Shown in pieces: positions 9,637 to 36,970 of a stretch of 64,000 bases of DNA (its first letter is position 1; the number at the start of each line of letters is the position of its first letter). A program made the translations under genes and the position numbers. The DNA lies in assembly GCF_008180155.1 (NCBI RefSeq), contig NZ_VSZS01000059.1, positions 62,001 to 126,000 of the forward strand. The letters are read 5' to 3'. The notes below the pieces were generated by a model, which saw nothing but the letters and a program-made list of their open reading frames with translations, searched no databases and was not told the origin of the DNA. The DNA comes from Neoaquamicrobium microcysteis (GTDB lineage: Bacteria; Pseudomonadota; Alphaproteobacteria; Rhizobiales; Rhizobiaceae).

Positions 9637-9647
9637 CGGAGGCGACC

Positions 9648-10496: not shown

Positions 10497-10498
10497 TC

Positions 10499-10963: not shown

Positions 10964-11025
10964 AGGTTTCCGCCGAACCGACACCCGTCGCCACCCAGGC
11001 AACTCGGTTTGGAGAAAGTTCCATC

Positions 11026-13441: not shown

Positions 13442-13601
13442 CGCCACATTCTCCGTCACATCTCATTTCAGGCCATCAAAACAAGTTCGATAGTCCACGT
13501 CTATCAAAGAATAGAATTTCGGAATTGGAGCCCGGCGCACCCAGCATGGGACAAGAGTGCATCGAAACCAAACACGATGCACTTCAAATCAGGAGACGAC
13601 C

Positions 13602-19665: not shown

Positions 19666-19779
19666 CGCGCTTGACAGGTCTCCTGTCCGGCGCGACAAGG
19701 GTTTCATGGGGACCGCGGTCTCCCCACGAGGCTCCGGCCCAAGAATCGCGTCCAGCAACCCGGCAACGGAGGACGCGCC

Positions 19780-20604: not shown

Positions 20605-22004
20605 GCACGGCCGCCGAGACCGCGACTGCTGCGCCTGGCTCCGCCGGCGGCGATCACAACATCCCCCTCGGCGAGGCGGTGCGCGTCTGGGCGCGCGTGG
20701 CCGCGCTCTCCTTCGGCGGCCCCGCGGGCCAGATCGCCGTCATGCACCGCATCCTGGTCGAGGAGAAGCGCTGGATCGGCGAGAACCGGTTCCTGCATGC
20801 GCTCAACTACTGCATGCTGTTGCCCGGTCCCGAGGCCCAGCAACTCGCCGTCTATATCGGCTGGCTGCTCCACAAGACGAAGGGCGGGCTCGTCGCCGGC
20901 ACGCTGTTCATCCTGCCGGGCTTCCTGTCGATCCTGGCGCTGAGCTACGTCTATGTGCTCCTCGGTAACGTGCCGATCGTCGAAGGCCTGTTCTTCGGCC
21001 TCAAGGCCGCCGTGCTGGCGATCGTTCTGCATGCCATCCAGCGCATCGGCAAGCGCGCGCTGAAGAACAATGTCATGCTGGCCATCGCCGCCGCTTCCTT
21101 CGTCGCGATCTTCTTTCTCGGCGCTCCGTTTCCGGCGATCGTGCTCGCCGCGGGCGTGCTTGGCTACCTCGGAGGACGCGCCGGGCTTTCCGCCTTCAAG
21201 GTTGGCGGCGGCCACGGCGGGAGCTCTGGTCCCACACTGCCCGATGCGGATTCGGCACTCGGTGAAGGCGTTCCGGCGCATGCGAGACCTAACGTCGGCT
21301 GGTCGCTGCGCATCTCGGCGATCTTCCTGGCTTTGTGGGTGGTCCCTCTCGTCGCGCTGGTGGTCGCGCTTGGCTGGGACAACGTGTTCAGCCGAATCGC
21401 CCTGTTCTTCAGCCAGATGGCCGTCGTCACCTTCGGTGGCGCCTATGCGGTGCTCGCTTATGTCGCGCAGCAGGCGGTCGAGACCTATGGCTGGCTCCAA
21501 CCCGGCGAGATGCTCGACGGGCTCGGAATGGCCGAGACAACACCCGGGCCACTCATCATGGTGGTTCAGTTCGTAGGCTTCCTCGGCGCATACCGCGATG
21601 CCGGCGGGCTCAACCCGTTGCTGGCCGCGACACTCGGTGCGGTGCTCACCACCTGGGTGACCTTCGTGCCCTGCTTCCTGTGGATCTTCCTCGGCGCGCC
21701 CTTCATCGAGCGCCTGCGCAGCAACGCGGCGCTCTCAGGCGCGCTGTCGGCAATCACGGCGGCCGTCGTCGGTGTGATCCTCAACCTTGCGATCTGGTTC
21801 GCGCTGCACGTTCTGTTCGACACCGTCATAGAAACCCGCGTCCTCGGCCTGACCCTCGACGTGCCGGTCCTCTCCAGCGCCAACTGGGCCGCGATCACCC
21901 TGACGGCGGCGGCCATGCTGGCGATATTCAGGTTCGGCGTGTCGATGGGTTGGGTGCTGGCCGCCTGCGCGCTGTCGGGAATTGTCTACCGACTGATCTA
22001 TTAA
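20601..22004 (+). CDS. chrA: Chromate transporter ChrA
   Basis: The 467-residue, two-domain long-chain ChrA exports chromate using the proton-motive force. The two CHR domains each start with a FGGPAGQIAVMH-like or FGGAYAVLAY motif (about 33 and 275), separated by a glycine-rich linker. The start ATG overlaps the chrB stop. No frame defects are seen. Confidence 0.93.
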   Translation: MSTAAETATAAPGSAGGDHNIPLGEAVRVWARVAALSFGGPAGQIAVMHRILVEEKRWIGENRFLHALNYCMLLPGPEAQQLAVYIGWLLHKTKGGLVAGTLFILPGFLSILALSYVYVLLGNVPIVEGLFFGLKAAVLAIVLHAIQRIGKRALKNNVMLAIAAASFVAIFFLGAPFPAIVLAAGVLGYLGGRAGLSAFKVGGGHGGSSGPTLPDADSALGEGVPAHARPNVGWSLRISAIFLALWVVPLVALVVALGWDNVFSRIALFFSQMAVVTFGGAYAVLAYVAQQAVETYGWLQPGEMLDGLGMAETTPGPLIMVVQFVGFLGAYRDAGGLNPLLAATLGAVLTTWVTFVPCFLWIFLGAPFIERLRSNAALSGALSAITAAVVGVILNLAIWFALHVLFDTVIETRVLGLTLDVPVLSSANWAAITLTAAAMLAIFRFGVSMGWVLAACALSGIVYRLIY

Positions 22005-22445
22005 AGGGCCCAGCGGTTCCGCCACGCGGGTTGGGAATGTCAGCTTAGGAGCCCGTGCGATTCCAAACCTGCCAGTCCGCTTCCGGCCCCAATCCGGTTA
22101 TGCCCAAGTAGAAGCGAAGCGGGCTATGGAGCGTTATCGGCGGTTATGCCGACAGTGCTATCCTACTTGGTCGGGGGTGCGAGAACCACGCCTCGCAGTC
22201 CATTGGCCTCGTAAGGAGCTATCTCATTGATAAATAAATAGATAGTCGTTCAGTTCGTGCGGCAATCGGCGGTGTTTGGCGGAGGGGACGGGACTGCCAT
22301 CCAACCTTCTCTGGCGCGGATTTACTCCGAATTGCACAGGCTCCGCAACCCTGGCTCGTGCGTAGATCCGGCGATGGTCCTCACCGGACTTGCCCGCGCC
22401 ATTCCCAATCTCGACTTGTTGCCCTAACAGGAATAGCTTGACCGT
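22005..22445. other. Intergenic stretch with an inverted repeat
   Basis: No gene is supported here. CCAAGTAG (22104-22111) and CTACTTGG (22163-22170) are exact inverted arms 51 bases apart. GGTTATGCC occurs twice nearby (22096-22104 and 22142-22150). A 16-base word at 22258-22273 recurs at 14727-14742. An AT-rich ATAAATAAATAGATAG lies near 22228. The function is unknown; it may be a recombination scar. Confidence 0.4.
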
Positions 22446-22784
22446 ATGAGCAAGTTCGTTCGCATACTCGCGTTCGTCTGTCTCGCAGCCTTCGCTGCGG
22501 GCACGGCAGCGAATGCGGCGGCTTCCACCGAAATGTCACTGATGATGTCCATGTCGAGCATGGACGATGGAGGCATGGCGGACTGTCAGGACTGTCCCGG
22601 CGATGACTCTCAGGCGTCGGAATGCGACCAGTTCTGCGTGACAAGCTTGGCCGCGATCTGCACGCCTGCGGGGACCGATCTGCCGAATGTCACCGATGTC
22701 GTGGTGATCGGCACCCCGACACCGACCAGCGACCTTTCGGGTCCCCCCGATCTCCATCCTCCCCGAACTATACGCTTGGGCTGA
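22446..22784 (+). CDS. Small secreted Met/Cys-rich protein of the copper cluster
   Basis: The 112-residue product has a signal peptide (cleaved near ANAAAS, residue 24), then a Met/Asp-rich segment (SLMMSMSSMDDGGMADCQDC) and four further cysteines. Small Met- and Cys-rich secreted proteins often precede copper oxidase genes and may bind Cu(I). The multicopper oxidase gene follows after 86 bases. No domain family is certain. Confidence 0.65.
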   Translation: MSKFVRILAFVCLAAFAAGTAANAAASTEMSLMMSMSSMDDGGMADCQDCPGDDSQASECDQFCVTSLAAICTPAGTDLPNVTDVVVIGTPTPTSDLSGPPDLHPPRTIRLG

Positions 22785-22870
22785 ACGGCCGCGGCGATAT
22801 CGCTCGCAGCCGACCCGTCGACGCGCCTGGCTACGCCGCGCGTCCCCTCAGGCTGTTCCAGGATTGATCC

Positions 22871-24349
22871 ATGTCCTATCCACGTCTGCCGGCGCTGACG
22901 CGTCGGACCTTTCTCGCATCGGCAGCCGCCCTTTCGGCCGGTGCGATGCTTCCACCGCAATCGAACGCCCGTGCCGCAGGCTTGCGGGAGTTCCGACTTC
23001 GCGCCGGCCCGGGCCGCGCCCAGATCGCGCCCGAGCCGTACGGCGATACAGCGGTCTGGTGCTACGGCGGCAGGCTGCCCGGCCCGGAAATCCGTGTCCG
23101 CCAGGGAGAACGCCTGCGGATCGCGGTCGAGAACGCGCTCGATGAAGAGACGACCGTGCACTGGCACGGCGTTCGCGTGCCGAACGCCATGGACGGCGTG
23201 CCACTCCTGACGCAGGCTCCTATCGCGCCCGGCGGGACCTTCACCTACGAGTTCGATGCGGTCGACGCAGGCACCTTCTGGTATCACCCGCATCATCGCA
23301 GTTTCGAGCAGGTCGGCCGTGGCCTCTACGGGCCGCTGATCATCGAGGAAGCCGATCCGGTCAAGGTCGACAGAGATGTAACCTGGGTGCTGTCGGACTG
23401 GCGGCTGACCGAATCCGCCGAAATGCGGGATGACTTCGGCAACCGCCACGACATGATGCACAACGGGAGGGTCGGCAACACGGTGACGATCAACGGCCGC
23501 GTGCCGGATGCCTTCCCGGTGTGGAAAGGGGAGCGCATCCGCCTCCGCTTGATCAACGCCGCCAACGCCCGCATCTTCGGCCTTGATTTCGGAAGCCACG
23601 GACCCGTCGTGATCGCGCTGGACGGGCAGCCCGTCGAGCCGCATGCGCCGCAGGACGGGCTCGTCGTGCTCGGACCCGCCATGCGCGCGGACATCATCCT
23701 CGACATGACGGCGGACGCCGGAAGCCGGGTATCGGTGACCGATCGCTTCTACAAGGACCTCGAATATCGCCTGGTCGATCTCGCCTATGACGATCGGCCG
23801 CTTCGGGAGACCGCCCCCGACTGGCCTGTCGCCCTTCCGCCCAACCCGCTGCCAGAGCCGGATCTCGTATCGGCCGCCCGCCACGAGGTCACCTTCAACG
23901 GCGGCATGATGGGCGCCATGGTCATGCAGGAGATGGGCGGCAGCATGGGCGAGGGTTCGTCAGGCGCGATGGGCGGGATGATGGGCAACATGGGCGCGAT
24001 GATGGACATGATGCATTCCGGCGGCATCTGGTTCATCAACGGCGTCGCGGCGGAAGGCCATGTCATGGACCCGATGCTGACGCTGGCGCGGGACAAGAGC
24101 CATGTCATCGCGATGACCAACGCGACGGCCTGGCATCACCCGATGCACCTGCACGGCCATTCGTTCCGGGTGATTTCCCGGAACGGCGAGCCGACGCGCT
24201 ACCGCGAATGGCAGGACACGGTTCTGATGTCGCCGCGCGAGCGCATCGAGATCGCCTTCGTCGCCGACAACCCCGGCGACTGGATGCTCCACTGCCACAT
24301 CCTCGAACACCAGGCCGCCGGGATGATGGGCGTTTTCCGCGTCGCCTGA
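22871..24349 (+). CDS. Periplasmic multicopper oxidase (CueO/CopA-like)
   Basis: The 492-residue protein starts with a Tat signal (RRTFLASAAALSAGA, Arg11-Arg12). All four copper-binding His motifs are visible: HWHG, WYHPHH, HHPMHLHGHSF and HCHILEHQAAGM, the last with the type 1 Cys and axial Met. A Met-rich insert (about 345-380, MMGAMVMQEMGG onward) resembles the CueO substrate-entry segment for Cu(I). It would oxidise Cu(I) to the less harmful Cu(II) in the periplasm. DUF411, cytochrome c and copper chaperone genes around it agree. Confidence 0.92.
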   Translation: MSYPRLPALTRRTFLASAAALSAGAMLPPQSNARAAGLREFRLRAGPGRAQIAPEPYGDTAVWCYGGRLPGPEIRVRQGERLRIAVENALDEETTVHWHGVRVPNAMDGVPLLTQAPIAPGGTFTYEFDAVDAGTFWYHPHHRSFEQVGRGLYGPLIIEEADPVKVDRDVTWVLSDWRLTESAEMRDDFGNRHDMMHNGRVGNTVTINGRVPDAFPVWKGERIRLRLINAANARIFGLDFGSHGPVVIALDGQPVEPHAPQDGLVVLGPAMRADIILDMTADAGSRVSVTDRFYKDLEYRLVDLAYDDRPLRETAPDWPVALPPNPLPEPDLVSAARHEVTFNGGMMGAMVMQEMGGSMGEGSSGAMGGMMGNMGAMMDMMHSGGIWFINGVAAEGHVMDPMLTLARDKSHVIAMTNATAWHHPMHLHGHSFRVISRNGEPTRYREWQDTVLMSPRERIEIAFVADNPGDWMLHCHILEHQAAGMMGVFRVA

Positions 24350-25553: not shown

Positions 25554-26147
25554 TCAGATCCAGCGTCGCACCTTACGGCAGTACGTTTGGTATTCGGCAC
25601 CGAGATCGCGATTCAAGGCCTGTTCCTCGATCCGGACCTGAAGGTGCACAGCCGCGATCAGCACGAAGGTCAGGGCGAGTTGGATGAGGTTCGGCAGCGC
25701 AAAAGCCAAGCCGACGAACAGCATCACCTGGCCAACGAACACAGGGTTGCGCGACAAGCCAAATGGTCCCGTTCGCACAATGGTGCCGAGCTCTCCCGAC
25801 GCTGCCCCGATCCTCCAGGATAGACCCATATAGATCTGCGAATAGAGCGCCAGGCCTGCTCCGGCTAAGGCGAGGACGCCGCCGACCAGATCGCCGAAAC
25901 GGCCATCGACCACTTCGTGCACCGGGTCGGCCAGCGCGTCGCTCAGAGCCAGCGCTGCCAGCGCGTAGACCGCGACGCCGGCGAACGCGAGACGGAACAG
26001 GAGCGCCGGGAGTGCCTGCCTCTCCGATCCTTTGCCGAACAGCCAAAGGGATCGCCCCGACGTCCGTGCCGCGCGGGCTGTTAGCATCAGGAATAGCGCC
26101 ATATAGGCCAATACAATTGCGGAGCAGACGGTCTCGATAGGTGTCAT
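25554..26147 (-). CDS. Isoprenylcysteine methyltransferase-like (ICMT/NnrU type) membrane protein
   Basis: The 197-residue protein has about five membrane helices and the C-terminal pattern GPFGLSRNPVFVG followed by RIEEQALNRDLGAEYQTYCRKVRRW, which matches the ICMT-like methyltransferase family. These bacterial proteins are found in many metal and lipid gene clusters, and their substrate is generally unknown. It faces the copper operon and its 3' end lies about 110 bases from the cytochrome stop. Confidence 0.8.
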   Translation of the reverse strand: MTPIETVCSAIVLAYMALFLMLTARAARTSGRSLWLFGKGSERQALPALLFRLAFAGVAVYALAALALSDALADPVHEVVDGRFGDLVGGVLALAGAGLALYSQIYMGLSWRIGAASGELGTIVRTGPFGLSRNPVFVGQVMLFVGLAFALPNLIQLALTFVLIAAVHLQVRIEEQALNRDLGAEYQTYCRKVRRWI

Positions 26148-26277: not shown

Positions 26278-26904
26278 TCACGCGGCCGTGCTGGCCAACC
26301 GGCGGAGCTTCTGAAGCTGGCTTTCCTTTGGCTCGTGCAAGTCGAGCGTGCCCATGAACTCACCCTCGGCGTCGATCAGGTAGACGCCGGCAGTGTGGTC
26401 CATCGTGTAGTTGCCGCCTTCCAGCGGCACCTTCTCGTAGTAGGCGGCGAACGCCTTCGCGGCCTGATCCGTCTGTTCCTTCGTGCCGCGCAGGGCAAGG
26501 ATGCGGGGGTCGAACGACGACATGTAGCTTGCGAGCAGTTCCTGCGTGTCGCGTTCGGGATCGACGGTGATGAACAGCGGCCTGATCTTGTCGGCATCCG
26601 GCCCGAGGTCTGCCAGCAGACCTGTCAACTCGAACAGCGTCGTTGGGCAGACGTCCGGGCAATGGGTGAAGCCGAAGAAGACGAGATATGGCGTGTCCTC
26701 CAGGTCCTCGTTGGTCAGCATCTCGCCCCTTTGCGTGGTCAGCTCGAACGGACCGCCGATCGCGGCAACGCCTGTGGCCGTGCTCGAAGTGACCGCTCCG
26801 GGTCTCTCGACGCCCGGCAGGAGGCCGCTGAAGGCTAAAAGCACACCCCCGACGATCGCCACCGCGCCCCAGGCCGCGGTGCGGATGATCTTCAACGCTT
26901 TCAT
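26278..26904 (-). CDS. SCO1/SenC copper chaperone
   Basis: This 208-residue, membrane-anchored thioredoxin-like protein shows the CPDVC motif (Cys82, Cys86) and the distal His in MDHTAGVYLID, together the Cu ligands of Sco. Sco delivers copper to the CuA site of cytochrome oxidase. Its start overlaps the PCuAC gene by four bases; the two proteins are known partners. It is the last gene of the ATPase-PCuAC-SCO operon. Confidence 0.92.
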   Translation of the reverse strand: MKALKIIRTAAWGAVAIVGGVLLAFSGLLPGVERPGAVTSSTATGVAAIGGPFELTTQRGEMLTNEDLEDTPYLVFFGFTHCPDVCPTTLFELTGLLADLGPDADKIRPLFITVDPERDTQELLASYMSSFDPRILALRGTKEQTDQAAKAFAAYYEKVPLEGGNYTMDHTAGVYLIDAEGEFMGTLDLHEPKESQLQKLRRLASTAA

Positions 26905-27404
26905 TGTGATACGGGCACCCTGTGGCCTTCGTGGTTCTGAGGCGCTTCCGGCGTTGCGCCCATCGGCACGATCGCAAACTCGACCGCGACATCGCCGGCC
27001 TTCTCGAAGGTGAGCGTTGCCGGAAAACGCTCGCCGTCCTTCAGCGGCTTTGCCGGATCGACGAACATGATGTGGGCGGCACCGGGCTGTAGCCTGAGGG
27101 TTTCGCCGGGCGCGATTGCAATCCCGTCTTCGGCTGGGCGCATCCGCGCCACGCCGTCAGTTATTGTCGACTCGTGCATCTCCACGGCCTCGGCGGCATC
27201 CGAGGAGCCGCCGAGCAGGCGATCGGGCTCGGTCCCGGTGTTGGTAATGGTGAGATAGCCGCCGGCGACTGGCGCTCCGGGCGGAGTCGCCCGCGCCCAG
27301 GGATGGTCGATCGCGAGTGGCCCGGCCTTGTAGTCATGGGCGAGCACACCCTGCGCTGCCGCGGTCAGTATCAGGCCGAGCGTGAGGGTCTTCACCAGTT
27401 TCAT
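26901..27404 (-). CDS. PCu(A)C periplasmic copper chaperone
   Basis: The 167-residue protein has a signal peptide (cleaved near VLAHD) and the copper site His77, Met88, His111 and Met113 with the family spacing. PCuAC passes Cu(I) to Sco or to CuA oxidase. A His-containing tail (NHEGHR) is present. It overlaps the ATPase by four bases and SCO by four, so all three are one operon. It is unusual that copper chaperones follow a Zn/Cd/Pb-type ATPase. Confidence 0.92.
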   Translation of the reverse strand: MKLVKTLTLGLILTAAAQGVLAHDYKAGPLAIDHPWARATPPGAPVAGGYLTITNTGTEPDRLLGGSSDAAEAVEMHESTITDGVARMRPAEDGIAIAPGETLRLQPGAAHIMFVDPAKPLKDGERFPATLTFEKAGDVAVEFAIVPMGATPEAPQNHEGHRVPVSQ

Positions 27405-29611
27405 CCTGTCACCCCGATTCTTTCGTTTTCGACTGCGCTCGCACCACCCGACCGACTCGTGGAAGCGCGATCGGCACGGAAGCGAAGGAGCCGCAGCGCA
27501 TTGATCGTGACGAGCACGGTGGCGCCGGTATCAGCCAGGATCGCCATCCAGAGCGTGGTCGTGCCGGTGAGCGTCGTAATCAGGAAAACGGCCTTGAGGC
27601 CCAGCGCCAGAGCGATGTTCTGCCAGATATTGCCCAGTGTCGCACGCGACAGCTCCACCAACTCGGCCACGCCCGTCACCCGGTTCTTCAGAAGCGCCGC
27701 GTCGGCAGTTTCGAGCGCGACTTCGGTGCCACCGCCCATGGCGATGCCCACCGAGGCCGCTGCCAGCGCCGGCGCATCGTTGATGCCGTCGCCCACCATG
27801 GCAATGCCACCATGCGCTCTCAGCGCGCCGATCTCGGCAAGCTTGGCGTCGGGCAGCAACTCCGCTTTGGCTTCCAAACCGAGGCCACCAGCGATTGCAT
27901 CAGCCGTGCGCGCGTTGTCGCCGGTCAGCATGACAGTCCGGACGCCGAGCTCGTTGAGGCGTGCCACGCCGGCGGCGGCATCCTCGCGCGGCTCGTCGCG
28001 CAGGGCGATGATGCCGAGGATCCTCTTGCCGCTCAGCAGCACAACGGCGGTCTTGCCTTCGAGCTCCAGCGATCTCAGGCGGGCACCGATCTCTTCGGGT
28101 ATCTCGGCTTGCTCAGCCGCGTAGCGCGGTGAGCCAATCGAAACGAAGCCCTCGCGGAGGCGTGCCGTCACGGCCTTGCCGGGGACTGCCATCGCCCCGC
28201 CGAACGTCTTCGGCAGCTCCAGGCCGCGTGCCTCGGCCGCCTCGACGATGGCGGCGCCGAGCGGGTGGCTGGACTCGCTTTCGACTGCGGCGGCCTTGGC
28301 GAGGATTTCGGCATCGTCGCCCTCGATGGCAATTACATCCGTCACGCGCGGCCGCCCGACCGTGAGCGTTCCGGTCTTGTCAAAGGCGACCGTGCGCACT
28401 TTGCCCAGCGTCTCAAGCGCGGCGCCGCCTTTCACGAGAAGCCCGCGCCGGGCACCTACGGCCAGTCCGGAAGCGATCGCCGCCGGCGTCGAGATGACGA
28501 GCGCACATGGACAGGCGATGAGCAGCGTCGCCAGGCCGCGATAGATCCAGGTCGACCATTCCGCCCCGAACAGGAGTGGCGGCGCGACCATGATCAGGGC
28601 GGCAACGGCCATGGCGGCGGGTGTGTAATAGGTGCTGAAGCGGTCGATAAAGCGCGCCGTGGGGGCTTTCGAGCCTTGCGCCTCCTCGACGAGATGAATG
28701 ATGCGGGCAATCGTGTTGTCGGCGGCCGTCCGCGTGATCCGCACCCGCAGCACGCCATTGGCGTTGATGCTGCCGGCAAAGACGGCGCTGCCCGGCTCTT
28801 TCAGGACCGGCACGGACTCGCCCGTGACCGGCGCCTCGTCCAGCTCGGACGTGCCCTCGATAACTTCTCCATCGGAAGGCACACGATCGCCGGGGCGGAC
28901 CACGACGACATTGCCGATGCCGAGCCGTTCGACCGGAACTTCCAACACGGCTCCGTCCCGCTCCAGCCGTGCGACGCGCGGCACAAGGTTCATCAGCGCA
29001 GCGATCCCGGAGCGTGCCCGTCCTGCGGCGATGTTCTCGAGGAGCTCGCCGACCGCGAACAGGAAAACCACGACCGCGGCCTCTGCGCCCTCGCCAATCG
29101 CGATAGCGCCGATCGCGGCAACGGACATCAAGGTCTCGATGCTGAAGGGCGTGCCATGGCGCGCGCCGGCAACAGCGCGCCGGGCGATCGGAATCAGACC
29201 GAGACCCGCCGCCGCCACATAGGCCCACTCCGCCACATCCGGCGCAATCGTCGCGACAACGAAGGCCAGAACAAGGAGCGCGCCGGTGCCGAGGACGAGC
29301 TGGCCTTTGCGGGTGCGCCACCAGGTCCGATCGACGGTCTCAGGTCGGCCAAGTGGGACATTTGCGTCGGCGATAGGCTCGCCGTCCACGGGATGCGGAG
29401 TGTAGCCTAGCGAGCGGATGCGCTCCTCGATCGCCGTGCGCGACGTGCGGTCCTCGTCCAGAAGGAGCGAGAGCATCTCCAATCCGACATTCACATTGAT
29501 GTCGCTGACGCCGGGCAGACGTTTCAGTCCGTTCTCGATTTTGAGCGCGCAGGCCCCGCAATCCATGCCTTCGACGCGGAGCTTGAGCGCACTGGCTGGC
29601 GCACCTGCCAT
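27401..29611 (-). CDS. P1B-type heavy-metal ATPase, Zn/Cd/Pb class (ZntA/CadA-like)
   Basis: The 736-residue pump has an N-terminal HMA domain (GMDCGAC, 15-21), the CPC membrane motif (ACPCALVIST), phosphorylation site DKTGTLT, the HP motif (SSHPLG) and the hinge GDGINDAPA. A lysine in LALGLKAVFL and an aspartate in ADTGATV near the last helices are the P1B-2 signature for Zn, Cd and Pb, not copper. An upstream in-frame start at 29662 would lie inside the promoter and operator, so I choose ATG 29611. Expression is probably controlled by the divergent MerR gene. Confidence 0.93.
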   Translation of the reverse strand: MAGAPASALKLRVEGMDCGACALKIENGLKRLPGVSDINVNVGLEMLSLLLDEDRTSRTAIEERIRSLGYTPHPVDGEPIADANVPLGRPETVDRTWWRTRKGQLVLGTGALLVLAFVVATIAPDVAEWAYVAAAGLGLIPIARRAVAGARHGTPFSIETLMSVAAIGAIAIGEGAEAAVVVFLFAVGELLENIAAGRARSGIAALMNLVPRVARLERDGAVLEVPVERLGIGNVVVVRPGDRVPSDGEVIEGTSELDEAPVTGESVPVLKEPGSAVFAGSINANGVLRVRITRTAADNTIARIIHLVEEAQGSKAPTARFIDRFSTYYTPAAMAVAALIMVAPPLLFGAEWSTWIYRGLATLLIACPCALVISTPAAIASGLAVGARRGLLVKGGAALETLGKVRTVAFDKTGTLTVGRPRVTDVIAIEGDDAEILAKAAAVESESSHPLGAAIVEAAEARGLELPKTFGGAMAVPGKAVTARLREGFVSIGSPRYAAEQAEIPEEIGARLRSLELEGKTAVVLLSGKRILGIIALRDEPREDAAAGVARLNELGVRTVMLTGDNARTADAIAGGLGLEAKAELLPDAKLAEIGALRAHGGIAMVGDGINDAPALAAASVGIAMGGGTEVALETADAALLKNRVTGVAELVELSRATLGNIWQNIALALGLKAVFLITTLTGTTTLWMAILADTGATVLVTINALRLLRFRADRASTSRSGGASAVENERIGVTG

Positions 29612-29643: not shown

Positions 29644-29674
29644 CATATAGACCCTGTAGCAACTACAGGGTCAA
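29644..29674 (-). promoter_or_regulatory. MerR-type promoter/operator of the ATPase operon
   Basis: On the minus strand a -35 TTGACC (29674-29669) and a -10 TATATG (29649-29644) are separated by 19 bp, the long spacer of MerR-activated promoters. The dyad ACCCTGTAG-CAA-CTACAGGGT (29651-29671) lies in the spacer. The sequence is of the ZntR/CadR/PbrR class. Confidence 0.85.
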
Positions 29675-29678
29675 GACG

Positions 29679-30092
29679 ATGACGCGCGAAAAGTTCTCGA
29701 TCGGCGATCTGGCCAAGGCGACCGACACGAAGGTAGAGACGATCCGGTATTACGAGCGCATCAGGCTCTTGCCGGAGCCGGAGCGCACTGGCGGCAATTA
29801 CCGGAGCTATTCGGCCGCGCATCTCGGTCGTCTCAGCTTCATTCGCCGCGCGCGCGATCTCGGCTTCTCGATCGAGCAGGTACGCGACCTTCTCGGACTT
29901 TCCGATCAGCGCGATCGACCTTGTGAGGCTGTTGACGCGATCGCGCGCGAGCATCTCGGCGAGGTGGAGCGCAAGATCCGGGATCTTCAGGCCCTGCGCC
30001 GCGAGCTGGACAGCATTCTAAGCCAGTGCGGCTGCGGCACAATCGCCGAATGCCGGATCATCGAGGCGCTGTCGCCTAACGATCAACGCTGA
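29679..30092 (+). CDS. MerR-family Zn/Cd/Pb-responsive regulator
   Basis: The 137-residue protein has the MerR winged helix (FSIGDLAKATDTKVETIRYY) and a dimer helix with Cys82. The C-terminal metal loop has Cys117, Cys119 and Cys125 (CGCGTIAEC). This Cys pattern fits the CadR/ZntR/PbrR group more than CueR. ATG 29679 is eight bases past the operator dyad. It should activate the divergent ATPase operon by untwisting the 19-bp spacer. Confidence 0.9.
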   Translation: MTREKFSIGDLAKATDTKVETIRYYERIRLLPEPERTGGNYRSYSAAHLGRLSFIRRARDLGFSIEQVRDLLGLSDQRDRPCEAVDAIAREHLGEVERKIRDLQALRRELDSILSQCGCGTIAECRIIEALSPNDQR

Positions 30093-30118: not shown

Positions 30119-31372
30119 TTAGGCGTGTAACCTTACCCGGCTGATGATGAACCGGCTTTGGGGTAATGCGGGCAGCCGTGAGTAGTCGATTCGCAAATCT
30201 TGCTCCGGCACATGGTATCTGATCCGTCTGGTCAGAAAGTCTGATGCCTGCTTCATCAGTTCGATTGTGATCCACTCGCCAGCGCAGCGGTGGTTGGCGT
30301 TGTGATCCCCGCCGCCTTGAGGAACGAAGTTGAACGGGCTGCCGTCCCATTCACGAAACCGCTCGGGCTGAAACGCCTCAGGCGAGTCCCACGTCCTGGC
30401 GTCGTGGTTCGTTCCGTAAAGGTCCAGGATAACGCGTCGCCCGCTAGGGAAGCGGTATCCCATCCAATCGAAATCGGATCGCACCAGCGCCGCGACAGCG
30501 GGAAAGAAGGGGTAGAAGCGCCGAACCTCCTGGACGAAGAATTCTGGGTAAGAACCGTCGCCGCCGGCTTCCAGCTTGCTCCGGCATTCAGGATAGTGAT
30601 GAAGGGCGTGGGCGACGAAGGTGATGTAGACACCGATGGCAACGATCGGCCTAATCACGTTGAGGACTTCCACAGCGGCAACGTGAGGGCTCAGCAGCTC
30701 ACCATCCAGACCCCGGTGCTCTGCGATGACGCGAGCAGCCGATTCTACCGGCGGGCGGATTTGCCTTGAACGGATCTGCACGACAACGTTCTCAATCCAG
30801 CGGTCGGCCCGTTTGCGCGCCAACCGAGCTCGCCAGTGCTTGGGCCCGACCGATCCTGCGGCATCGAAAAGCGCGGTGATCTCCCGCGTCCGCTGTCGCA
30901 CCTGAGCCTCGGGTAGCGGAACCCCGGCCCAACCGCACGCGGCTCGCGTCAGAAGTTCGTGGAGCTCATCGTACAAGACGATCTCGTCCTTAAGCGCCCA
31001 TGGCCGAGCACGGGCCTGCCACTCCTCCGCGGTAGTTGCGATCAGTCCTTCGATCCGCTCGGGCGTCATCAGGGACATGAACATCTGCTTGCGATGTCGG
31101 TGAGCCGCGTCATCCAGCCCTTGCACACCACCCCTTCCAAGAAGCGTTTTCTGGATTCGCCCGATCATGGCGCCATGCCGCATAAATCGGCTTTGATCGT
31201 AGAAGAGCCGGGCCCCCTCCGGCCCCGTCATACAGATTGTTTTGCGGAGCATGAGCCGGGTCTCGAATAGGTCCGCTCCATAGACGCGACACTGCTTCGA
31301 GATGAACCTATAAGGGTCCTTGAGTAGCGCGAGCGTCGCGTCGAGCCGGTTGTCACGAGGAAGCGGCGGCAT
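30119..31372 (-). CDS. CYP152-like cytochrome P450 (fatty acid peroxygenase type)
   Basis: The 417-residue soluble P450 has the ExxR motif (Glu282, Arg285) and the haem Cys363 in the unusual segment FNFVPQGGGDHNANHRCAGEW typical of CYP152. Arg241-Pro242 replaces the usual acid-alcohol pair in the I helix; in CYP152 this Arg binds the fatty-acid carboxylate so that H2O2 can be used directly. Gln84 is at the position that is Gln in hydroxylating P450 BS-beta and His in the decarboxylase OleT, so hydroxylation is the likelier reaction. It is the last gene of the MerR-controlled five-gene operon. ATG 31372 overlaps the lspA stop. Confidence 0.88.
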   Translation of the reverse strand: MPPLPRDNRLDATLALLKDPYRFISKQCRVYGADLFETRLMLRKTICMTGPEGARLFYDQSRFMRHGAMIGRIQKTLLGRGGVQGLDDAAHRHRKQMFMSLMTPERIEGLIATTAEEWQARARPWALKDEIVLYDELHELLTRAACGWAGVPLPEAQVRQRTREITALFDAAGSVGPKHWRARLARKRADRWIENVVVQIRSRQIRPPVESAARVIAEHRGLDGELLSPHVAAVEVLNVIRPIVAIGVYITFVAHALHHYPECRSKLEAGGDGSYPEFFVQEVRRFYPFFPAVAALVRSDFDWMGYRFPSGRRVILDLYGTNHDARTWDSPEAFQPERFREWDGSPFNFVPQGGGDHNANHRCAGEWITIELMKQASDFLTRRIRYHVPEQDLRIDYSRLPALPQSRFIISRVRLHA

Positions 31373-31872
31373 CAAGGCGCCTTCATCGGATCAACATCGG
31401 GGTGCTTTTTCGGACCCTTCGCCTCGTCTCTGGGCAAGATGCTTTCGAGCAACAGAAGGCCGACGCCGCTCACGATCGCCACATCGGCGAGATTGAAAGC
31501 CGGCCAGTGATAGGTGGCGAGGTAAAAATCCAGAAAGTCCGTCACGGCGCCATGCCGCAGCCGGTCGATAAGGTTTCCCAGCGCGCCCCCGGCAATGAGC
31601 CCGAGCGAAACGGCCGTCAGGCGGTGTTCGGCCCGCTGCAACCAAACAAGGAGCCCGGCCACAATCGCCAGCGTGAGAGCGATCAGTGCCCAAGGCGAGG
31701 CGTCGCCAAACAACCCGAAACTCACGCCCGTGTTGCGGCCAAGGACCAGGTTGAAGAAGCCGGTGATGGGGATCACCTGGGGCGGGGCCATGACGTGGTT
31801 GAGGATCATCCACTTCGATACCTGATCGGCCGTGAGAGCGAGGAGTGCGATAGGGAGCCCAAGTTTCAGCAT
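31372..31872 (-). CDS. lspA: Lipoprotein signal peptidase (signal peptidase II)
   Basis: The 166-residue membrane protease has four helices and catalytic Asp112 (VTDFLDF) and Asp130 (NLADVAI). It cleaves prolipoproteins after lipid attachment. An in-frame TTG at 31899 overlaps ccdA, but ATG 31872 with GGAAAGGA just before it is the better start. A second, element-borne lspA also occurs in lead-resistance operons (pbrB/pbrC region of Cupriavidus), which supports metal resistance here. The lipoprotein it serves is not evident in this operon. Confidence 0.9.
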   Translation of the reverse strand: MLKLGLPIALLALTADQVSKWMILNHVMAPPQVIPITGFFNLVLGRNTGVSFGLFGDASPWALIALTLAIVAGLLVWLQRAEHRLTAVSLGLIAGGALGNLIDRLRHGAVTDFLDFYLATYHWPAFNLADVAIVSGVGLLLLESILPRDEAKGPKKHPDVDPMKAP

Positions 31873-31895
31873 GCCTGTCCTTTCCGTTGTTGGGC

Positions 31896-32639
31896 TCAAC
31901 CGATCTGGCCGAGAACCGGGAAGGTCTGCAGGAGCCAGATCGCGAAGCTACTCAGTTGGCCGGTAATCATCGCGATACCCATTACTACCATAGTCCCGCC
32001 GGCGACGATCTTCAGGACGCGTCCGGTTCGCCGCATGGCCGTCATTCGCGCCATGAAACCGCGCATGAACAGGGCGGCAAGGATGAAGGGCAGACCAAGT
32101 CCGAGCGAATAGACTGCCAGGAGGGCCGTTCCGCTTCCGGCGGTGGCATTCGCGGCCGAAAGCGCCAGGATCGCACCAAGGACCGGCCCGATGCAGGGCG
32201 TCCAGCCGAAGGCGAAGGCAAGGCCCAAGAGGTAGTTTGCCCAAGGCCCGCCGCCTGGCCGGCCTGAGTGAAATCTCACATCGCGCTCGAACCACGGCAT
32301 GGGCACGAGGCCGGTCGTGAACAGGCCGAAGCCAATGACGATCGCACCGCCGATCAGGTTGGCCTCATAGAGGTGTGCGCGCAGAAGCCCACTTAGCGCT
32401 GTTGCGCTGGCCCCGAGGAGGACGAATACGGTAGTGAAGCCGAGCACGAAGCAGAGGCCCAAACCGAGTGTCCGAATCGTCTCCTTCAGGCCTACTTGGT
32501 GGGCAAGCCCATCCGGGCTGATGGTCCGCCCGGCGACATAGGAGACGTAGCCCGGCACGAGCGGCAGAACGCAAGGGGATAGAAACGAGATGACGCCCGC
32601 GGCAAAAGCCGTGGCTATACCGACGCCGGAGTGGTCCAC
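31896..32639 (-). CDS. ccdA: CcdA/DsbD-family thiol-disulfide membrane protein
   Basis: The 247-residue protein has six helices and the two redox cysteine sites LSPCVLPLVPGY (helix 1) and GWTPCIGPVLGA (helix 4). CcdA moves electrons from cytoplasmic thioredoxin to periplasmic thiols for cytochrome c assembly or other disulfide reduction. It starts with GTG after GGAGGA. A small periplasmic thioredoxin partner is not encoded nearby. Its 3' end overlaps the TTG-start version of lspA. Confidence 0.88.
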   Translation of the reverse strand: MDHSGVGIATAFAAGVISFLSPCVLPLVPGYVSYVAGRTISPDGLAHQVGLKETIRTLGLGLCFVLGFTTVFVLLGASATALSGLLRAHLYEANLIGGAIVIGFGLFTTGLVPMPWFERDVRFHSGRPGGGPWANYLLGLAFAFGWTPCIGPVLGAILALSAANATAGSGTALLAVYSLGLGLPFILAALFMRGFMARMTAMRRTGRVLKIVAGGTMVVMGIAMITGQLSSFAIWLLQTFPVLGQIG

Positions 32640-32654
32640 TGCGGTCCTCCTCCG

Positions 32655-33539
32655 TCAGGCCTTGGCGCCGCTCGCCGGTGCGGCCTCTCGAAGATCGTTG
32701 CGGGCATCGCGGATGATCGACCATGCCGACTGCAGGAACAGCCCGGCCACGGCAAACGCCACGATCAGATCCGGCCAAGGCGAATTCAGCGCCCATACGA
32801 CGCCGGCCGCGGCGATTACAGCGAAATTGCCAATCGCGTCGTTGCGCGAAAACAGCCACACGGCGCGCATATTGGCATCGCCTTTCCGGTGCGGCAGCAG
32901 TACCACGGCCGCGAGCACGTTGACGATCAACGCGACGGTGGCAAAGCCGGCCATCAGCAGCGTTTGGGGCTCGTGCTCGACGAAGACGCGGTAGAACGTC
33001 GAGCCGATCACGCCAAAGCCGAGCAGCGCCAGGAAAATTCCCTGCAGCAGTGCCGCCCGGGCTCGCGCTGCAAGGCCCCAGCCAACGGCTATCAGCCCAA
33101 GGAAGGAGATCAGACCGTCGCCGATGAAGTCGAGGGCATCGGCCTGCAGCGCTTGCGAGCCCGCGAGGAAGCTGCCGCCAATTTCAATGACGCCGTAGCC
33201 GACATTCAGCAGAACGACGATCCACAGCGCCCGTTTGTAGGCCGGCGTGACATGTGAGAGGTCGGGAATGCGGTCATCATCATCAACCTCGGCGGCATCG
33301 GCAGATGTCTTCGGCGCGCCTATACGGTCGAGCTGGTATCCGAGGTCGCTCACCGCGTTTTCGACGACGGGCAATCGGGTGGCCGCATCATCGACCTCCA
33401 GGGTCATGATCTGCGAGGCGATCGACACCTTTACATCGGAGACACCGGGGACCTTGCGTGCTGCGCCTTCGATCTTGGCGGCGCAGGAGGCACAGTCCAT
33501 GCCCGTGACGTGATAGCGGGCCGTTGCGGTAGCGGTCAT
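32655..33539 (-). CDS. HMA domain fused to CDF-type cation transporter
   Basis: The 294-residue protein joins an N-terminal HMA metal-binding domain (GMDCASC, 13-19) to a six-helix cation diffusion facilitator core. CDF metal-site residues are seen in QADALDFIGDG (helix 2) and SRNDAIGNFAV (helix 5). An acidic linker (VDDDDRIPD) separates the domains. It probably exports Zn, Cd, Co or Pb by proton exchange. ATG 33539 overlaps the ligase stop by four bases, so they are co-translated. Confidence 0.88.
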   Translation of the reverse strand: MTATATARYHVTGMDCASCAAKIEGAARKVPGVSDVKVSIASQIMTLEVDDAATRLPVVENAVSDLGYQLDRIGAPKTSADAAEVDDDDRIPDLSHVTPAYKRALWIVVLLNVGYGVIEIGGSFLAGSQALQADALDFIGDGLISFLGLIAVGWGLAARARAALLQGIFLALLGFGVIGSTFYRVFVEHEPQTLLMAGFATVALIVNVLAAVVLLPHRKGDANMRAVWLFSRNDAIGNFAVIAAAGVVWALNSPWPDLIVAFAVAGLFLQSAWSIIRDARNDLREAAPASGAKA

Positions 33540-34906
33540 AAGATTGGTCCTTTGGGCTCGAAGGGAATAATCGGGCGAACTTTGCCGCCTTGGGTTTGCT
33601 CGGGTGGCTCATCGCCGCGCTCGATTTTGACGTGGTCGAGACCCTGTCGCTCGAGCAGTGCGCGCATATCAGCCTCGACCCGCGGCCAGACCGTGTCAGG
33701 GGTGCCGGAGACTTTCAGGCGCACCCGCACCGCATCGGGTGCGGTTTGCACGACCTGGTAGAGATCGACGCCGGGCACTGGATCAAGTAGCGCATAAAAG
33801 ACCATTGGCGGCATTGTCACGGTCTGGCCGTCGCGGCCGGCGAAGCGCACCAGGTCGGAGGCACGCCCCTGGACTCGTATTGCCGGGAAGGGGCTGCCGC
33901 AGGGGCAGGCGTCCGGGCGCTCGACGATGCTGTCGCCAAGATCGTAGCGTAGGACCGGCTGCAGGCCGTTCGCCAGATTGCTCACCAGAACTGTGTGCGA
34001 GACCTGTCCTTTGGGTACTGGTCTGTGGCTCGCATCGACGGCTTCAAATGTCGCCCAATCGGAGTTCACGTGCAGCCAGCCATGCGCGCAGCTGAAGCTC
34101 AAGAACGGCACTTCCGTGGAAGCGTAGCTGTTACCTACCTTGGCGTTGAAGGCGCGTGCGATGCGCCCGTATTCTTCGGGAGCCAACCCCTCAGCTGCGA
34201 GTGCAAGCAGCGCAGGCCGAATGTGTAGGCGGCCCTGTTCCTGTTCGGTGGCGAGCAGGGCTGCAATGCTCGCGTAAGGCGCCAGAAGAACAGGCTGGAA
34301 CTCATTAAGCGCAGCCACGATTTCTCGGATCGGATCATGCACCGAGAGCTGCAGAAGCTTGTCGTTACGCCGACGCTTCAAGGCGGCGGCGGCCACAGCC
34401 GAGGCGAAATGTCCGCCCTTGGCCATCACCATCGCCATGCGCCCCGACCCTGCGATGATCTTCACGAAATCGCCAAAGCTTAACCAGCTCGTGAGCATGC
34501 GAAGGGCGATGGACTGTGTGACCGCCATGGCCCGATTGTCATAAAGGAAGATGCCCTTGGTTCCGCTCGTGCCCGAGGTGGTCGCCAGGGTGTAGCCGTG
34601 GAACTTCTCGCCGACCTTGTCCGGGTCTTCGGCGAAGACTTGGGCGTCGGAAAACGTGACGGTCCGATCAGTTACCCAATCGTCGAATCCACTCATCAGC
34701 CACTTCTTGGTGGTGATCGGCAGATTCTCAAGCCTCACCGGCCCTTGGGGTATATCGGCATAGAGCCGCCGGTAGAGGGGAGAATTTGCCCGAGCGAAAG
34801 CAACCATCGCGCCAAGGCGCTCGCGCTGCCGTCGAAGGATGCCCTCGGACCCCTCCTTCCTGGCGCGTCGGTTATCGAGCACGAGCCCAAGCAGGTTTTC
34901 ACCCAT
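33536..34906 (-). CDS. Adenylate-forming enzyme of the PaaK/phenylacetate-CoA ligase family
   Basis: The 456-residue protein has the adenylation core motifs TSGTSGTKG (near 110), YASTE (near 262), LRYDLGD (near 322) and a zinc-type CPCGSPFP segment. PaaK-like ligases activate a carboxylic acid as acyl-AMP and usually pass it to CoA; the acid is unknown. It is the first gene of an operon with a CDF transporter, CcdA, LspA and a fatty-acid P450. The start ATG follows AAGGAGG, and the MerR-type promoter lies about 55 bases upstream. Confidence 0.87.
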   Translation of the reverse strand: MGENLLGLVLDNRRARKEGSEGILRRQRERLGAMVAFARANSPLYRRLYADIPQGPVRLENLPITTKKWLMSGFDDWVTDRTVTFSDAQVFAEDPDKVGEKFHGYTLATTSGTSGTKGIFLYDNRAMAVTQSIALRMLTSWLSFGDFVKIIAGSGRMAMVMAKGGHFASAVAAAALKRRRNDKLLQLSVHDPIREIVAALNEFQPVLLAPYASIAALLATEQEQGRLHIRPALLALAAEGLAPEEYGRIARAFNAKVGNSYASTEVPFLSFSCAHGWLHVNSDWATFEAVDASHRPVPKGQVSHTVLVSNLANGLQPVLRYDLGDSIVERPDACPCGSPFPAIRVQGRASDLVRFAGRDGQTVTMPPMVFYALLDPVPGVDLYQVVQTAPDAVRVRLKVSGTPDTVWPRVEADMRALLERQGLDHVKIERGDEPPEQTQGGKVRPIIPFEPKGPIL

Positions 34907-34960
34907 GCGAAGGCCTCCTTTCTCGATATGCCGAACGCCCTTGCGGTGATATAGGCCCGG

Positions 34961-34991
34961 AGTCTACAACCTGTAGCGACTACAGGAGCAA
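34961..34991 (-). promoter_or_regulatory. MerR-type promoter/operator of the ligase-P450 operon
   Basis: Minus-strand -35 TTGCTC (34991-34986) and -10 TAGACT (34966-34961) are 19 bp apart. The dyad CCTGTAG-CGA-CTACAGG (34970-34986) has the same arms as the operator at 29651. This places the ligase/CDF/CcdA/LspA/P450 operon under the adjacent MerR protein. Confidence 0.83.
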
Positions 34992-35002
34992 GAGCTAAAA
35001 AA

Positions 35003-35389
35003 ATGCAGATTGGGGACCTGTCGCGCGCGGCCGGCGTCAACATCGAAACCATCCGCTACTACGAGCGGATCGGCGTACTGCCTAAGGCGACCCGCCAAGT
35101 GAACGGCCGGCGTACCTACTCCCAGGACGACGCCCGCCGCTTGAGCTTCATTCGCCATGCCCGGGATCTTGGATTTGATCTGGCCGACGTGCGCACGCTT
35201 CTTGCCCTGCAAGAGCAACCCGAAGCCTCCTGCGAAGATGCGAGTCGTATCGCCCAAGCGCAGTTGGAGGCGGTCGAGAGCCGAATTGCCAAGCTCCAGA
35301 GCCTGCGGACCGAGCTCACCCGCATGCTGACGGAATGTCAGAATGGGGTCGTGGCCGAATGTCGTGTGATTGAAGCGCTCAACGGCTAA
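35003..35389 (+). CDS. MerR-family CadR/PbrR-like regulator
   Basis: The 128-residue protein has the MerR DNA-binding region (MQIGDLSRAAGVNIETIRYY) and three cysteines Cys77, Cys112 and Cys120 placed as in the Cd/Pb sensors CadR and PbrR. It lacks the CxC pair of the first MerR protein, so the two may differ in metal preference. ATG 35003 lies 16 bases past the operator dyad, and it is divergent from the ligase-P450 operon. Confidence 0.9.
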   Translation: MQIGDLSRAAGVNIETIRYYERIGVLPKATRQVNGRRTYSQDDARRLSFIRHARDLGFDLADVRTLLALQEQPEASCEDASRIAQAQLEAVESRIAKLQSLRTELTRMLTECQNGVVAECRVIEALNG

Positions 35390-35457: not shown

Positions 35458-35712
35458 TCAACCTCGGCAGGCTCTCGCCTGATTTCGCATAACTTCGTAG
35501 TCGCTCATCATCGCAACGATCGCCGATCGGTCAGGCAGAAGAGCGAGTTCGTCGGCTGCTCGCATCTGAAGCTCGCGGCTGTACTCCACGACGGGCGGAC
35601 AGACCGATACGCCGACCGGATCAGAACCGACCGTCGCGCATGCGCTCAGCGAGGTCGTCACGATCGCGAGGGCGGCGACTCGCTGCCTCAACCATGCGAC
35701 GTTGGATTTCAT
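35458..35712 (-). CDS. Probable phage o-spanin (Rz1-like lipoprotein)
   Basis: The 84-residue product has a lipoprotein signal ending in LSAC (Cys25) and a short mature domain. Its start lies inside the preceding gene in another frame (overlap 35621-35712), the standard embedded arrangement of Rz/Rz1 spanin pairs. In phage lysis it would fuse the outer membrane with the inner one. It is next to an endolysin fragment. Assignment rests on architecture, not sequence similarity. Confidence 0.6.
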   Translation of the reverse strand: MKSNVAWLRQRVAALAIVTTSLSACATVGSDPVGVSVCPPVVEYSRELQMRAADELALLPDRSAIVAMMSDYEVMRNQARACRG

Positions 35713-35878
35713 TCAGCTTCTCCGTGGCTTCGAGGCGTTCAACGAGACGACCTGCTCTCTCGCCGGACCGCCGTAGGGAGAACAGGAACAGCAGGACGGC
35801 GAGCGCGAGAACGCTGTATCGTAGGGCGGTACGCGCCCACGGGCTGCTGGTGATCGCGCCGAGCAAAGCCATGATCAT
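35621..35878 (-). CDS. Probable phage i-spanin (Rz-like)
   Basis: The 85-residue protein has one N-terminal membrane helix (about 17-38) followed by a charged helical segment (RLVERLEATEKLNEIQRR), as expected for an inner-membrane spanin with a periplasmic coiled coil. Its start overlaps the endolysin stop by four bases and its end overlaps the lipoprotein gene. It would work with the lipoprotein at 35458. Confidence 0.6.
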   Translation of the reverse strand: MIMALLGAITSSPWARTALRYSVLALAVLLFLFSLRRSGERAGRLVERLEATEKLNEIQRRMVEAASRRPRDRDDLAERMRDGRF

Positions 35879-36360
35879 CGCCGTCCACGTTTCCAGTCGT
35901 CGATGCGGGCATAGATCGCGAGGGCGATGCCAATAAGCGCGACCGCGATGAACACCCAGCGCAGCGTGTCCAGGTAGGGCACGAGTGGCAGAATGGCTGA
36001 TTGCGTCTCGCTGAGGATGCTCTGCGCCACCTCGACACCCGCGGCGCCCAGTGTCGCCACACCGGCCGCACCAGTGCCTTTCATGGTGCGGCTCTCCGCC
36101 AGAACTTCGCGCGCAGGTGGGGTCTCGGCAGCGAACGCCGTTTCACGCGGCGGGAAGCGCTCGCCCCACTGCCGCGCGGGACCCAGATCGATGTGCATGA
36201 AGCCCGACCGTGGATAAAAGCCGAAGCCGAGGAATCCGACCGCCCGCGCGGCCGCCTCGAACGCAACCGGATCATGGTTCGACATTGCAATATCGAACGC
36301 GGCGCCTTCCATGTGCTTCGAGCGCTTTGCACCGCCGACGGCGCGGTTGTGCTCCGGCGA
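35875..36360 (-). pseudogene. Phage endolysin (peptidase M15 type) lacking its N-terminus
   Basis: The reading begins inside the M15 peptidase domain at SPEHNRAVGGAKRSKHMEG, continues through GFMHIDLGPARQWGERF with the zinc His, and ends with a transmembrane helix (about 130-150) and a basic tail, as in endolysin-holin fusions. About 60-80 N-terminal residues, including the first half of the metal site, are missing. At 36360 it meets a truncated aldolase in head-to-head order, so a recombination joint lies there. Confidence 0.65.
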
Positions 36361-36361
36361 G

Positions 36362-36970
36362 GGTCTGCGTGATATCCTCGCTTGCATCGAGGCAGCTTTC
36401 CCGCCGGTTGGTATTGTGCTGCCAAAGGTGGAAACGGCTGAAGAGGTGCGCTGGGCTGGCGAACTCCTGGATGAGAAGGGGCTCGGCTGCCAGCTTCACA
36501 CCATCATCGAGACGCCGCAGGCGCTGACGAATGCCGCAACGATCGCGAGGGCGCATCCGCGGCAACGGTCGCTGATCTTCGGTGGATTCGACATGTCCAC
36601 CGCCATGGGCGCCGAGATGGAGTGGGAGCCGTTGCTCCATGCCCGCTCTGCAATCGTGGCCGCCGCCGCCCATGCAGCGCTTGACGTTGTCGACGCACCG
36701 TTTGCGGACCTGTCCGATGAGGCCGGACTGCGCCGTTGGACATCGCGGGCCCGCGCCCTTGGCATGACCGGAAAGGTGGTCAAGGATCCTTCGCAGCTTG
36801 CGGCGATTCATGAAATCCTGACGCCTGACGCCACCCAGATCGAACGTGCCAAAAGGATTGTGGCGGCGTTCGACCTGGATCCCGGGCAGCCTCTTCGTTT
36901 CGAAGGCAAGCTCGTGGAATTGCCGACGATTAAGCGGTTGCGCCAGGTAGCCACCTCGAGGTTCTCATGA
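36362..36970 (+). pseudogene. HpcH/HpaI-CitE-like aldolase, 5' truncated
   Basis: The recognisable protein begins at EGLRDILACIEAAFPPVGIV and includes LPKVETAEEV, IIETPQAL and FGGFDMS, which are the metal and substrate motifs of CitE-like lyases in the HpcH/HpaI family. The first third, with the beta1 strand and active-site Arg, is missing. The 3' end is intact and overlaps the aminotransferase by four bases. A frame from 36311 could be translated but its first 17 residues belong to the phage side. Confidence 0.7.

Follow-up and report, generated by a model that had tools for sequence, protein, structure and literature searches.

The question raised by the locus described here is why an operon that appears to be controlled by metal should encode a cytochrome P450 of the fatty-acid hydroxylase type together with an acyl-activating ligase. 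The locus occupies positions 30119-35389 of a stretch of 64,000 nucleotides from Neoaquamicrobium microcysteis (Rhizobiaceae; assembly GCF_008180155.1, contig NZ_VSZS01000059.1, positions 62,001 to 126,000), hereafter called the window. It consists of five genes, encoding a ligase, a metal exporter, CcdA, LspA and a CYP152 P450, and of a facing gene for a MerR-family regulator. CYP152 enzymes are widely used as biocatalysts and, to our knowledge, their natural role has little genetic support. In unrelated bacteria, relatives of the P450 and of the ligase repeatedly have metal-resistance genes as neighbours, so that enzymes known mainly from biocatalysis may take part in metal defence.

All six gene positions proposed by a first-pass annotation of this DNA were confirmed, as were the families of the five tightly packed genes, which run on the reverse strand from 34906 to 30119. 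The ligase (33536-34906, 456 aa) is followed by an exporter with an HMA and a CDF domain (32655-33539, 294 aa; 92.0 bits for TIGR01297, cut-off 82.35), a CcdA/DsbD-TM thiol-electron carrier (31896-32639, 247 aa; SPC at 21 and TPC at 147; 47 bits for DsbD_TM/CcdA, cut-off 27.1), the signal peptidase II LspA (31372-31872; 125.7 bits for TIGR00077, cut-off 73.95) and the P450 (30119-31372, 417 aa). LspA displays the motifs NLIDR, VTDF and FNLAD, within which we take the catalytic aspartates to lie. Three of the four joints had been described as overlapping; two certainly are (ATGA between ligase and CDF, TGATG between LspA and P450), while the CcdA/LspA overlap requires a TTG start at 31899, to which an ATG located 27 nt downstream behind a good ribosome-binding site is preferred.

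The facing regulator (35003-35389, forward strand, 128 aa) carries Cys77, Cys112 and Cys120, presumably the pattern of Hg, Cd, Pb and Zn sensors. Its best NCBIfam match is CadR-PbrR (TIGR02047), with 108.9 bits for a cut-off of 151.45, and MerR reaches 108.8 bits. Since these scores are tied, an attempt to derive the metal from them failed, and the protein is placed only in the metal-sensing MerR group. Metal-type control is supported, the narrower CadR/PbrR label given previously is not. Upstream of the ligase, a MerR-type promoter (TTGCTC-19 bp-TAGACT, 34961-34991, reverse strand) contains the operator CTGTAGTCGCTACAG at 34971-34985. The spacing and the dyad of this promoter are classic, as had been claimed, but its hexamers are weak. 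A second promoter with the same type of operator (TTGACC-19 bp-TATATG, 29644-29674, reverse strand; CTGTAGTTGCTACAG at 29654-29668) precedes the operon of a P1B metal ATPase of the ZntA/CadA type with an HMA domain (27401-29611, reverse strand), which faces a second MerR-family gene (29679-30092, forward strand) identified by family match. The ATPase probably starts at the ATG at 29611 because the upstream TTG falls within the promoter. The MerR domains score above the family cut-off.

In the whole 4.84-Mb genome, exact matches to the dyad CTGTAGYNRCTACAG occur only at these two promoters; the pattern was derived from both sites, so that its presence there is by construction and the absence of other exact sites is what informs. 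Two further sites appear with one mismatch. A reversed control pattern with the same tolerance gives 34 matches per strand, which means that the genome as a whole shows no enrichment of the dyad. Within the window, chance is an improbable source: with two mismatches allowed, a shuffled window would hold 0.04 such dyads, against the two promoters that carry one. The dyad is also found upstream of the ligase in relatives from Devosia, Hyphomicrobium, Mesorhizobium and Afipia (L003, L005, L006, L007) and, with its second half altered, in a metagenome-assembled genome (MAG) of Rhizobiales (L004). From the shared operator, we infer that the ligase operon and the P-type ATPase operon may form one private two-operon regulon.

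The ligase matches no Pfam family at E 0.001. It resembles PaaK and F390 synthetase according to NCBIfam (106 bits, below the cut-off of 251.9), to its profile and to its fold (AlphaFold model, pLDDT 89.3), and its motifs TSGTSG, YASTE, RYDLGD and GGK, like the fold, are those of PaaK-like adenylate-forming ligases. The phenylacetate-CoA ligase (PaaK) equivalogs were not recovered (NF041878, 33.3 bits for a cut-off of 700; TIGR02155 unmatched at E 0.001). Pattern searches with the window protein, which bias the sample to its kin, led to 60 ligase loci among 84,980 species genomes, and plasmid hits were added. Metal linkage was called from tblastn matches (E 1e-5) at a distance of up to 8 kb, the queries being the window proteins and others taken from three further clusters. 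A metal exporter (P1B ATPase, CDF or CadD) lies within this distance for 35 of the 39 ligase open reading frames (ORFs) sharing at least 51% identity, two of the four exceptions being fragments at contig ends, which hide neighbours (L041, L055), and for 2 of the 29 below this identity (68 ORFs scored; L149 and L024, both included, represent the same gene, and ligases missed by the ORF caller enter the trees only). These counts, as well as that of the metal-linked P450 rows (26/54), are unchanged when labels are redone without the HMA domain shared by the CDF and ATPase queries, one P450 row (L163) being then metal-linked by LspA alone. Among the 75 ligase genes defined by tblastn, 41 are metal-linked and 28 have LspA. 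Conserved synteny outside this element, the lack of which would have spoken against the first-pass annotation by its own account, is supported.

In the ligase tree, a clade of 55 rows (SH-aLRT 100) gathers 37 metal-linked rows, belonging to Pseudomonadota, Actinomycetota, Chloroflexota, Bacteroidota, Planctomycetota and Acidobacteriota, and 18 rows without metal neighbours, mostly from actinobacteria. For example, the gene order is ArsR-ATPase-methyltransferase-ICMT-ligase-LspA-ZIP on a Rubrobacter plasmid, TlpA-P450-ArsR-ATPase-LspA-CcdA-CadD-ligase in Arthrobacter FB24 and P450-ligase-CDF in Algoriphagus.

Other arrangements were seen around ligase relatives. Five Chloroflexi loci with near-identical ligases (L018, L020, L040, L045, L049; around 7800-13500) carry LspA, a methyltransferase, a second methyltransferase, the ligase and a P1B ATPase in a row. 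Actinobacterial relatives lacking metal neighbours (L028:1184-4723 and L042:8476-12397) lie beside a TauD-family dioxygenase and near a gene that resembles IspG by eye, with a second AMP-binding protein alongside in L028, a candidate biosynthetic cluster; the second AMP-binding protein and the dioxygenase of these clusters indicate no clear substrate. Genome G194 holds two copies (L102, L103), identical in the tree columns, about 0.4 Mb apart on one contig.

The P450 belongs to the CYP152 family, its nearest solved relative being SP-alpha (3awm; phmmer E 1.3e-156, 57% identity); NF053744 (CYP152 CypC) gives 579 bits, just below the equivalog cut-off of 600. In ATG numbering, it carries Gln84, Arg241-Pro242 and the heme ligand Cys363. 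We take Gln84 to mark the hydroxylase type (His marking decarboxylases) and the Arg-Pro pair to bind the fatty-acid carboxylate, so that the fatty-acid hydroxylase type read previously from these residues is retained as a prediction. A role of the arginine in carboxylate binding has been described for CYP152 P450s (PMC5818669). The Gln and the Arg-Pro pair are found in all 26 metal-linked P450 rows. A decarboxylase of the OleT type was considered and rejected, His84 occurring in 0/26 metal-linked rows and 5/28 others.

The nearest relative found (84%), on the Ancylobacter plasmid pC, lies in nearly the same island without the ligase: ArsR-CDF-CcdA-LspA-P450-MerR-ATPase-PCu(A)C. The 23 plasmid contexts that were hand-chosen out of 135 records include 17 with metal linkage, of which 16 have an exporter, and LspA lies within 8 kb of the P450 in 14, directly adjacent on the same strand in 10. 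P450s from genomes holding the ligase are metal-linked in 8 of 15 cases. The last seven plasmid contexts served as controls (six at 42-50% identity, one at 56%): three contain LspA, two of these with an adjoining CDF exporter, and four, from Paenibacillus cellulositrophicus, Priestia, Streptomyces and a member of the Comamonadaceae, have no metal genes. Plasmid residence alone thus does not bring metal genes, which are lacking in 6 of the 23 contexts. On an Aurantiacibacter plasmid (L163:6528-9245), LspA, a peroxiredoxin and a CYP152 P450 follow one another, and genes for an FTR1 permease and a multicopper oxidase are nearby.

A single origin of the metal-linked P450s was rejected (AU p 7e-38 for one clade), and given the starred branches the metal label must have changed at least four times. 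An early tree of 48 rows had displayed a neat clade (SH-aLRT 98; 20/22 metal-linked), which dissolved after the addition of seven more plasmid contexts. In the enlarged tree, the group of the window (18/20 metal-linked) and a Bacillota/Bacteroidota group (4/6), neither of them starred, are separate, and Arthrobacter-type rows and Paracoccus yeei fall elsewhere. P450s therefore entered metal clusters more than once, and their adjacency to LspA recurs in distant lineages. Repeated recruitment is one reading of this, continual replacement of the P450 within the cluster the other, and each argues that the cluster has a use for such an enzyme.

SP-alpha itself provides a further case. The P450 encoded by plasmid NZ_CP065669.1 of Sphingomonas paucimobilis (296186-297433; L126:8004-9251) is identical to the 3awm chain over 412 aa (100%). 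Its gene is flanked on one side by CueR paired with a P-type ATPase and on the other by a MerR-type regulator with MerT; further along come a cation transporter, an FTR1 permease and efflux genes. In that strain, the enzyme behind much of the chemistry of this field is thus encoded within a metal island. A review on peroxygenase P450s uses neither "metal" nor "operon" in its main text (PMC5818669).

Taking these data together, we tentatively propose, with a confidence slightly short of even, that the operon serves both to export metal and, in response to it, to remodel the envelope through fatty-acid hydroxylation, lipoprotein processing and periplasmic thiol supply. In this strain, the MerR protein would sense a thiophilic metal (of the Pb, Cd, Zn and Hg class) and open the promoter of the ligase-CDF-CcdA-LspA-P450 genes together with the P-type ATPase operon. 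The CDF protein and the ATPase would export the metal, and the remaining genes would adapt the envelope to the presence of the metal, to the presumed benefit of the cell. The P450 could use H2O2, raised by metal stress, to hydroxylate free fatty acids, most likely at C2, and the ligase could adenylate or thioesterify an acid for entry into lipids, its substrate being the hydroxy acid in bacteria that have both genes and another acid elsewhere. Meanwhile, LspA would keep lipoprotein processing going and CcdA would supply electrons to periplasmic thiol proteins. What is observed directly is the genes, the motifs and the promoter pair described above, and the repeated association of the P450, the ligase, LspA and CcdA with metal exporters.

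Several observations weigh against this proposal. At E 1e-20, 14 of the 16 plasmid records that contain the P450 show no ligase, a count covering the records themselves and not the chromosomes of their hosts; at E 1e-50, no CYP152 is seen in 35 of the 49 genomes that contain the ligase. Neither gene therefore needs the other, and a strict chain from P450 to ligase is not general. The idea of the first-pass annotation that the ligase activates the P450 product is weakened accordingly, although the two genes are occasionally direct neighbours, in two Bacteroidota (Algoriphagus and Marivirga), a Chloroflexi MAG whose ligase reading frame is broken and a Mesorhizobium MAG (L006, L009, L010, L058), an adjacency that must have changed three times or more along the P450 tree. 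In our reading, the P450 and the ligase serve distinct envelope functions, each able to occur without the other and combined in some cases, the operon of the window among them. A dedicated exported lipoprotein acceptor, also postulated, is not supported: a crude lipobox scan gave hits in 22 of 56 metal loci and 12 of 59 non-metal loci, many of which look spurious, and no candidate recurred among these loci. Apart from the window's own, none of the 15 P450s from the surveys of the order and class is metal-linked (11 of the 12 other order hits, one fragment being omitted, and all four other class hits). The Gln and Arg-Pro residues are also found in 21 of 28 non-metal P450s (five others have His, two Met), so the hydroxylase type is shared and does not mark metal linkage. 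In the haloarchaeon Saliphagus (L051), a relative of the ligase lies beside a gene fusing an HMA domain to a methyltransferase and near a P-type ATPase. The membrane lipids of haloarchaea are not known to be built from fatty acids, so the general substrate of the ligase may not be a fatty acid. More generally, metal islands collect genes, and co-location alone can overstate function. Finally, in Mesorhizobium, the induction of LspA by Cd was not significant (PMC3668242).

An unlikely alternative is that the P450 is a detoxifier, consuming the H2O2 and the membrane-damaging free fatty acids to which metal stress gives rise; the hydroxy acid would then be waste, and the ligase would act on something else. 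It agrees with the predominance in our sample of P450 plasmids lacking the ligase (14/16 records), with the peroxiredoxin located between LspA and P450 in L163 and with the use of H2O2 by SP-alpha-type enzymes (PMC5818669). The direct adjacency of P450 and ligase in Algoriphagus, Marivirga and the Mesorhizobium and Chloroflexi MAGs speaks against it, and catalases or peroxiredoxins would seem simpler scavengers. The patchy distribution of the P450, which at E 1e-40 is found in 13 of the 397 order genomes and at E 1e-80 in 5 of the 385 class genomes, the genome of the window included in both, and the mostly plasmid-borne state of the metal-linked P450s would suit mere hitch-hiking on mobile metal islands without any shared function. 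This we hold to be very improbable given the tight same-strand packing under a metal-type promoter, the P450-LspA adjacency in distant lineages and the plasmids devoid of metal genes (6/23 contexts, including four of the seven mostly lower-identity controls).

The island could also supply spare, metal-tolerant or extra copies of envelope enzymes inhibited by metals (LspA and CcdA here; elsewhere Lgt, ResB/CcsB and dihydrolipoamide dehydrogenase-like proteins), with the P450 and the ligase as further helpers. LspA and CcdA are indeed extra copies, with three LspA family matches and three DsbD_TM matches in the genome, operon copies included, and Lgt, ResB/CcsB, TlpA/ResA and LpdA-like genes recur in clusters. 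However, the only other P450 match in the genome reaches 20 bits and the ligase has a single match at E 1e-60; these two are thus no backups of a close resident homologue. We consider this explanation improbable. On another contig of this genome (L159:7190-10900, G000 contig 47), a second LspA and CcdA lie about 2.4 kb apart.

We give about as little credit to the view that the ligase, with the UbiE-like and ICMT/PEMT-type methyltransferases that stand near it elsewhere, makes a lipophilic metal ligand or a modified lipid, the P450 being an optional tailoring enzyme. The neighbour survey has 18 loci with a UbiE-like methyltransferase cluster, which in Chloroflexi MAGs stands near the ligase, annotated methyltransferases lie near the ligase on Rubrobacter and Mycolicibacterium plasmids, and the haloarchaeal HMA-methyltransferase fusion and the ligase genomes without a CYP152 match (35/49) fit as well; the operon of the window, however, contains no methyltransferase, the nearest one found (25554-26147) lying beyond the ATPase. 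The fusion itself (L051:1311-2285) joins an HMA domain to a UbiE/ArsM-like domain and is possibly a metal-directed methyltransferase.

The gene at 25554-26147 encodes a PEMT/ICMT-type membrane methyltransferase (reverse strand; PEMT 38.6 bits, cut-off 25) and stands further along the island, with no implication of co-transcription. Between it and the ATPase are a PCu(A)C-family periplasmic metal-binding protein (26901-27404, reverse strand), recognized by family match, and an ORF (26360-26992) in the position of the SCO gene of relatives, which matches no Pfam family. By eye, CsoR/RcnR-like, MFS-like, ChrA-like and multicopper-oxidase-like ORFs at 16885-24349 suggest that the metal island extends upstream, and two ORFs next to the MerR gene (35458-36387), one of 84 aa with a lipobox and one resembling an M15 peptidase, look like a phage lysis remnant.

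The association with metal clusters suggests a concrete, testable natural role for CYP152 enzymes. It may also help to understand the LspA of lead-resistance operons, as that of the window belongs to a wider envelope module. If the proposed remodelling is true, metal resistance includes regulated lipid chemistry beyond export and sequestration. A broader extension, which we regard as doubtful, is that several phyla share a transferable, metal-switched membrane-lipid programme in which CYP152 enzymes and stress-derived H2O2 would yield 2-hydroxylated, less permeable envelopes in heavy-metal resistance, SP-alpha and its kin being metal-defence enzymes with LspA, the ligase and CcdA as partners at the envelope.

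Compared with known systems, the P450 of the window shares with SP-alpha (CYP152B1), a well-studied fatty-acid alpha-hydroxylase, Gln84, Arg241-Pro242 and, for the plasmid enzyme, a metal island, but the gene of SP-alpha has no LspA within 8 kb in the examined record. PaaK, BT_0428, AjiA1, NatL2 and 2-hydroxyisobutyryl-CoA ligase share the fold and adenylation motifs of the ligase, although they are only 14-22% identical to it in structural alignments and its own clade is mostly metal-linked. Searches of open PMC papers, whose scope did not extend to subscription journals and preprints, brought up no report that places CYP152 or such a ligase in a metal operon (including PMC5818669, PMC10002949, PMC3668242, PMC3431237, PMC1526738, PMC4531530, PMC6978705, PMC10991351, PMC3972451), in agreement with the earlier statement that they are not part of known metal systems. 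P450 genes have been tied to metal resistance in general terms (PMC10991351), and other P450s are listed in a mercury-resistant Arthrobacter (PMC6978705).

The presence of LspA and CcdA in or near metal operons is already known. In Mesorhizobium metallidurans and strain STM 4661, ccdA lies downstream of the metal ATPase gene cadA and is induced by Zn and Cd, and a Zn-induced LspA gene is on the same scaffold (PMC3668242); the arrangement differs from that of the window, and the main text of that work does not mention a P450. A close likeness is with the pbr lead-resistance operon of Cupriavidus metallidurans (PbrR/PbrT/PbrABCD; PMC3431237), whose published model assigns no role to PbrC, some reports suggesting a help in phosphatase maturation. 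Both have a divergent MerR-family regulator, here with three cysteines and a long-spacer promoter with a dyad, a metal exporter and an LspA part (PbrC, fused to PbrB in pbr). In the window, however, the exporter is a CDF protein, the ligase, CcdA and the P450 are added, and PbrD is missing, as are a PbrA-type ATPase and the PbrB phosphatase, so the five genes are not filed as a pbr operon; a P1B ATPase stands in the neighbouring operon, behind the same operator.

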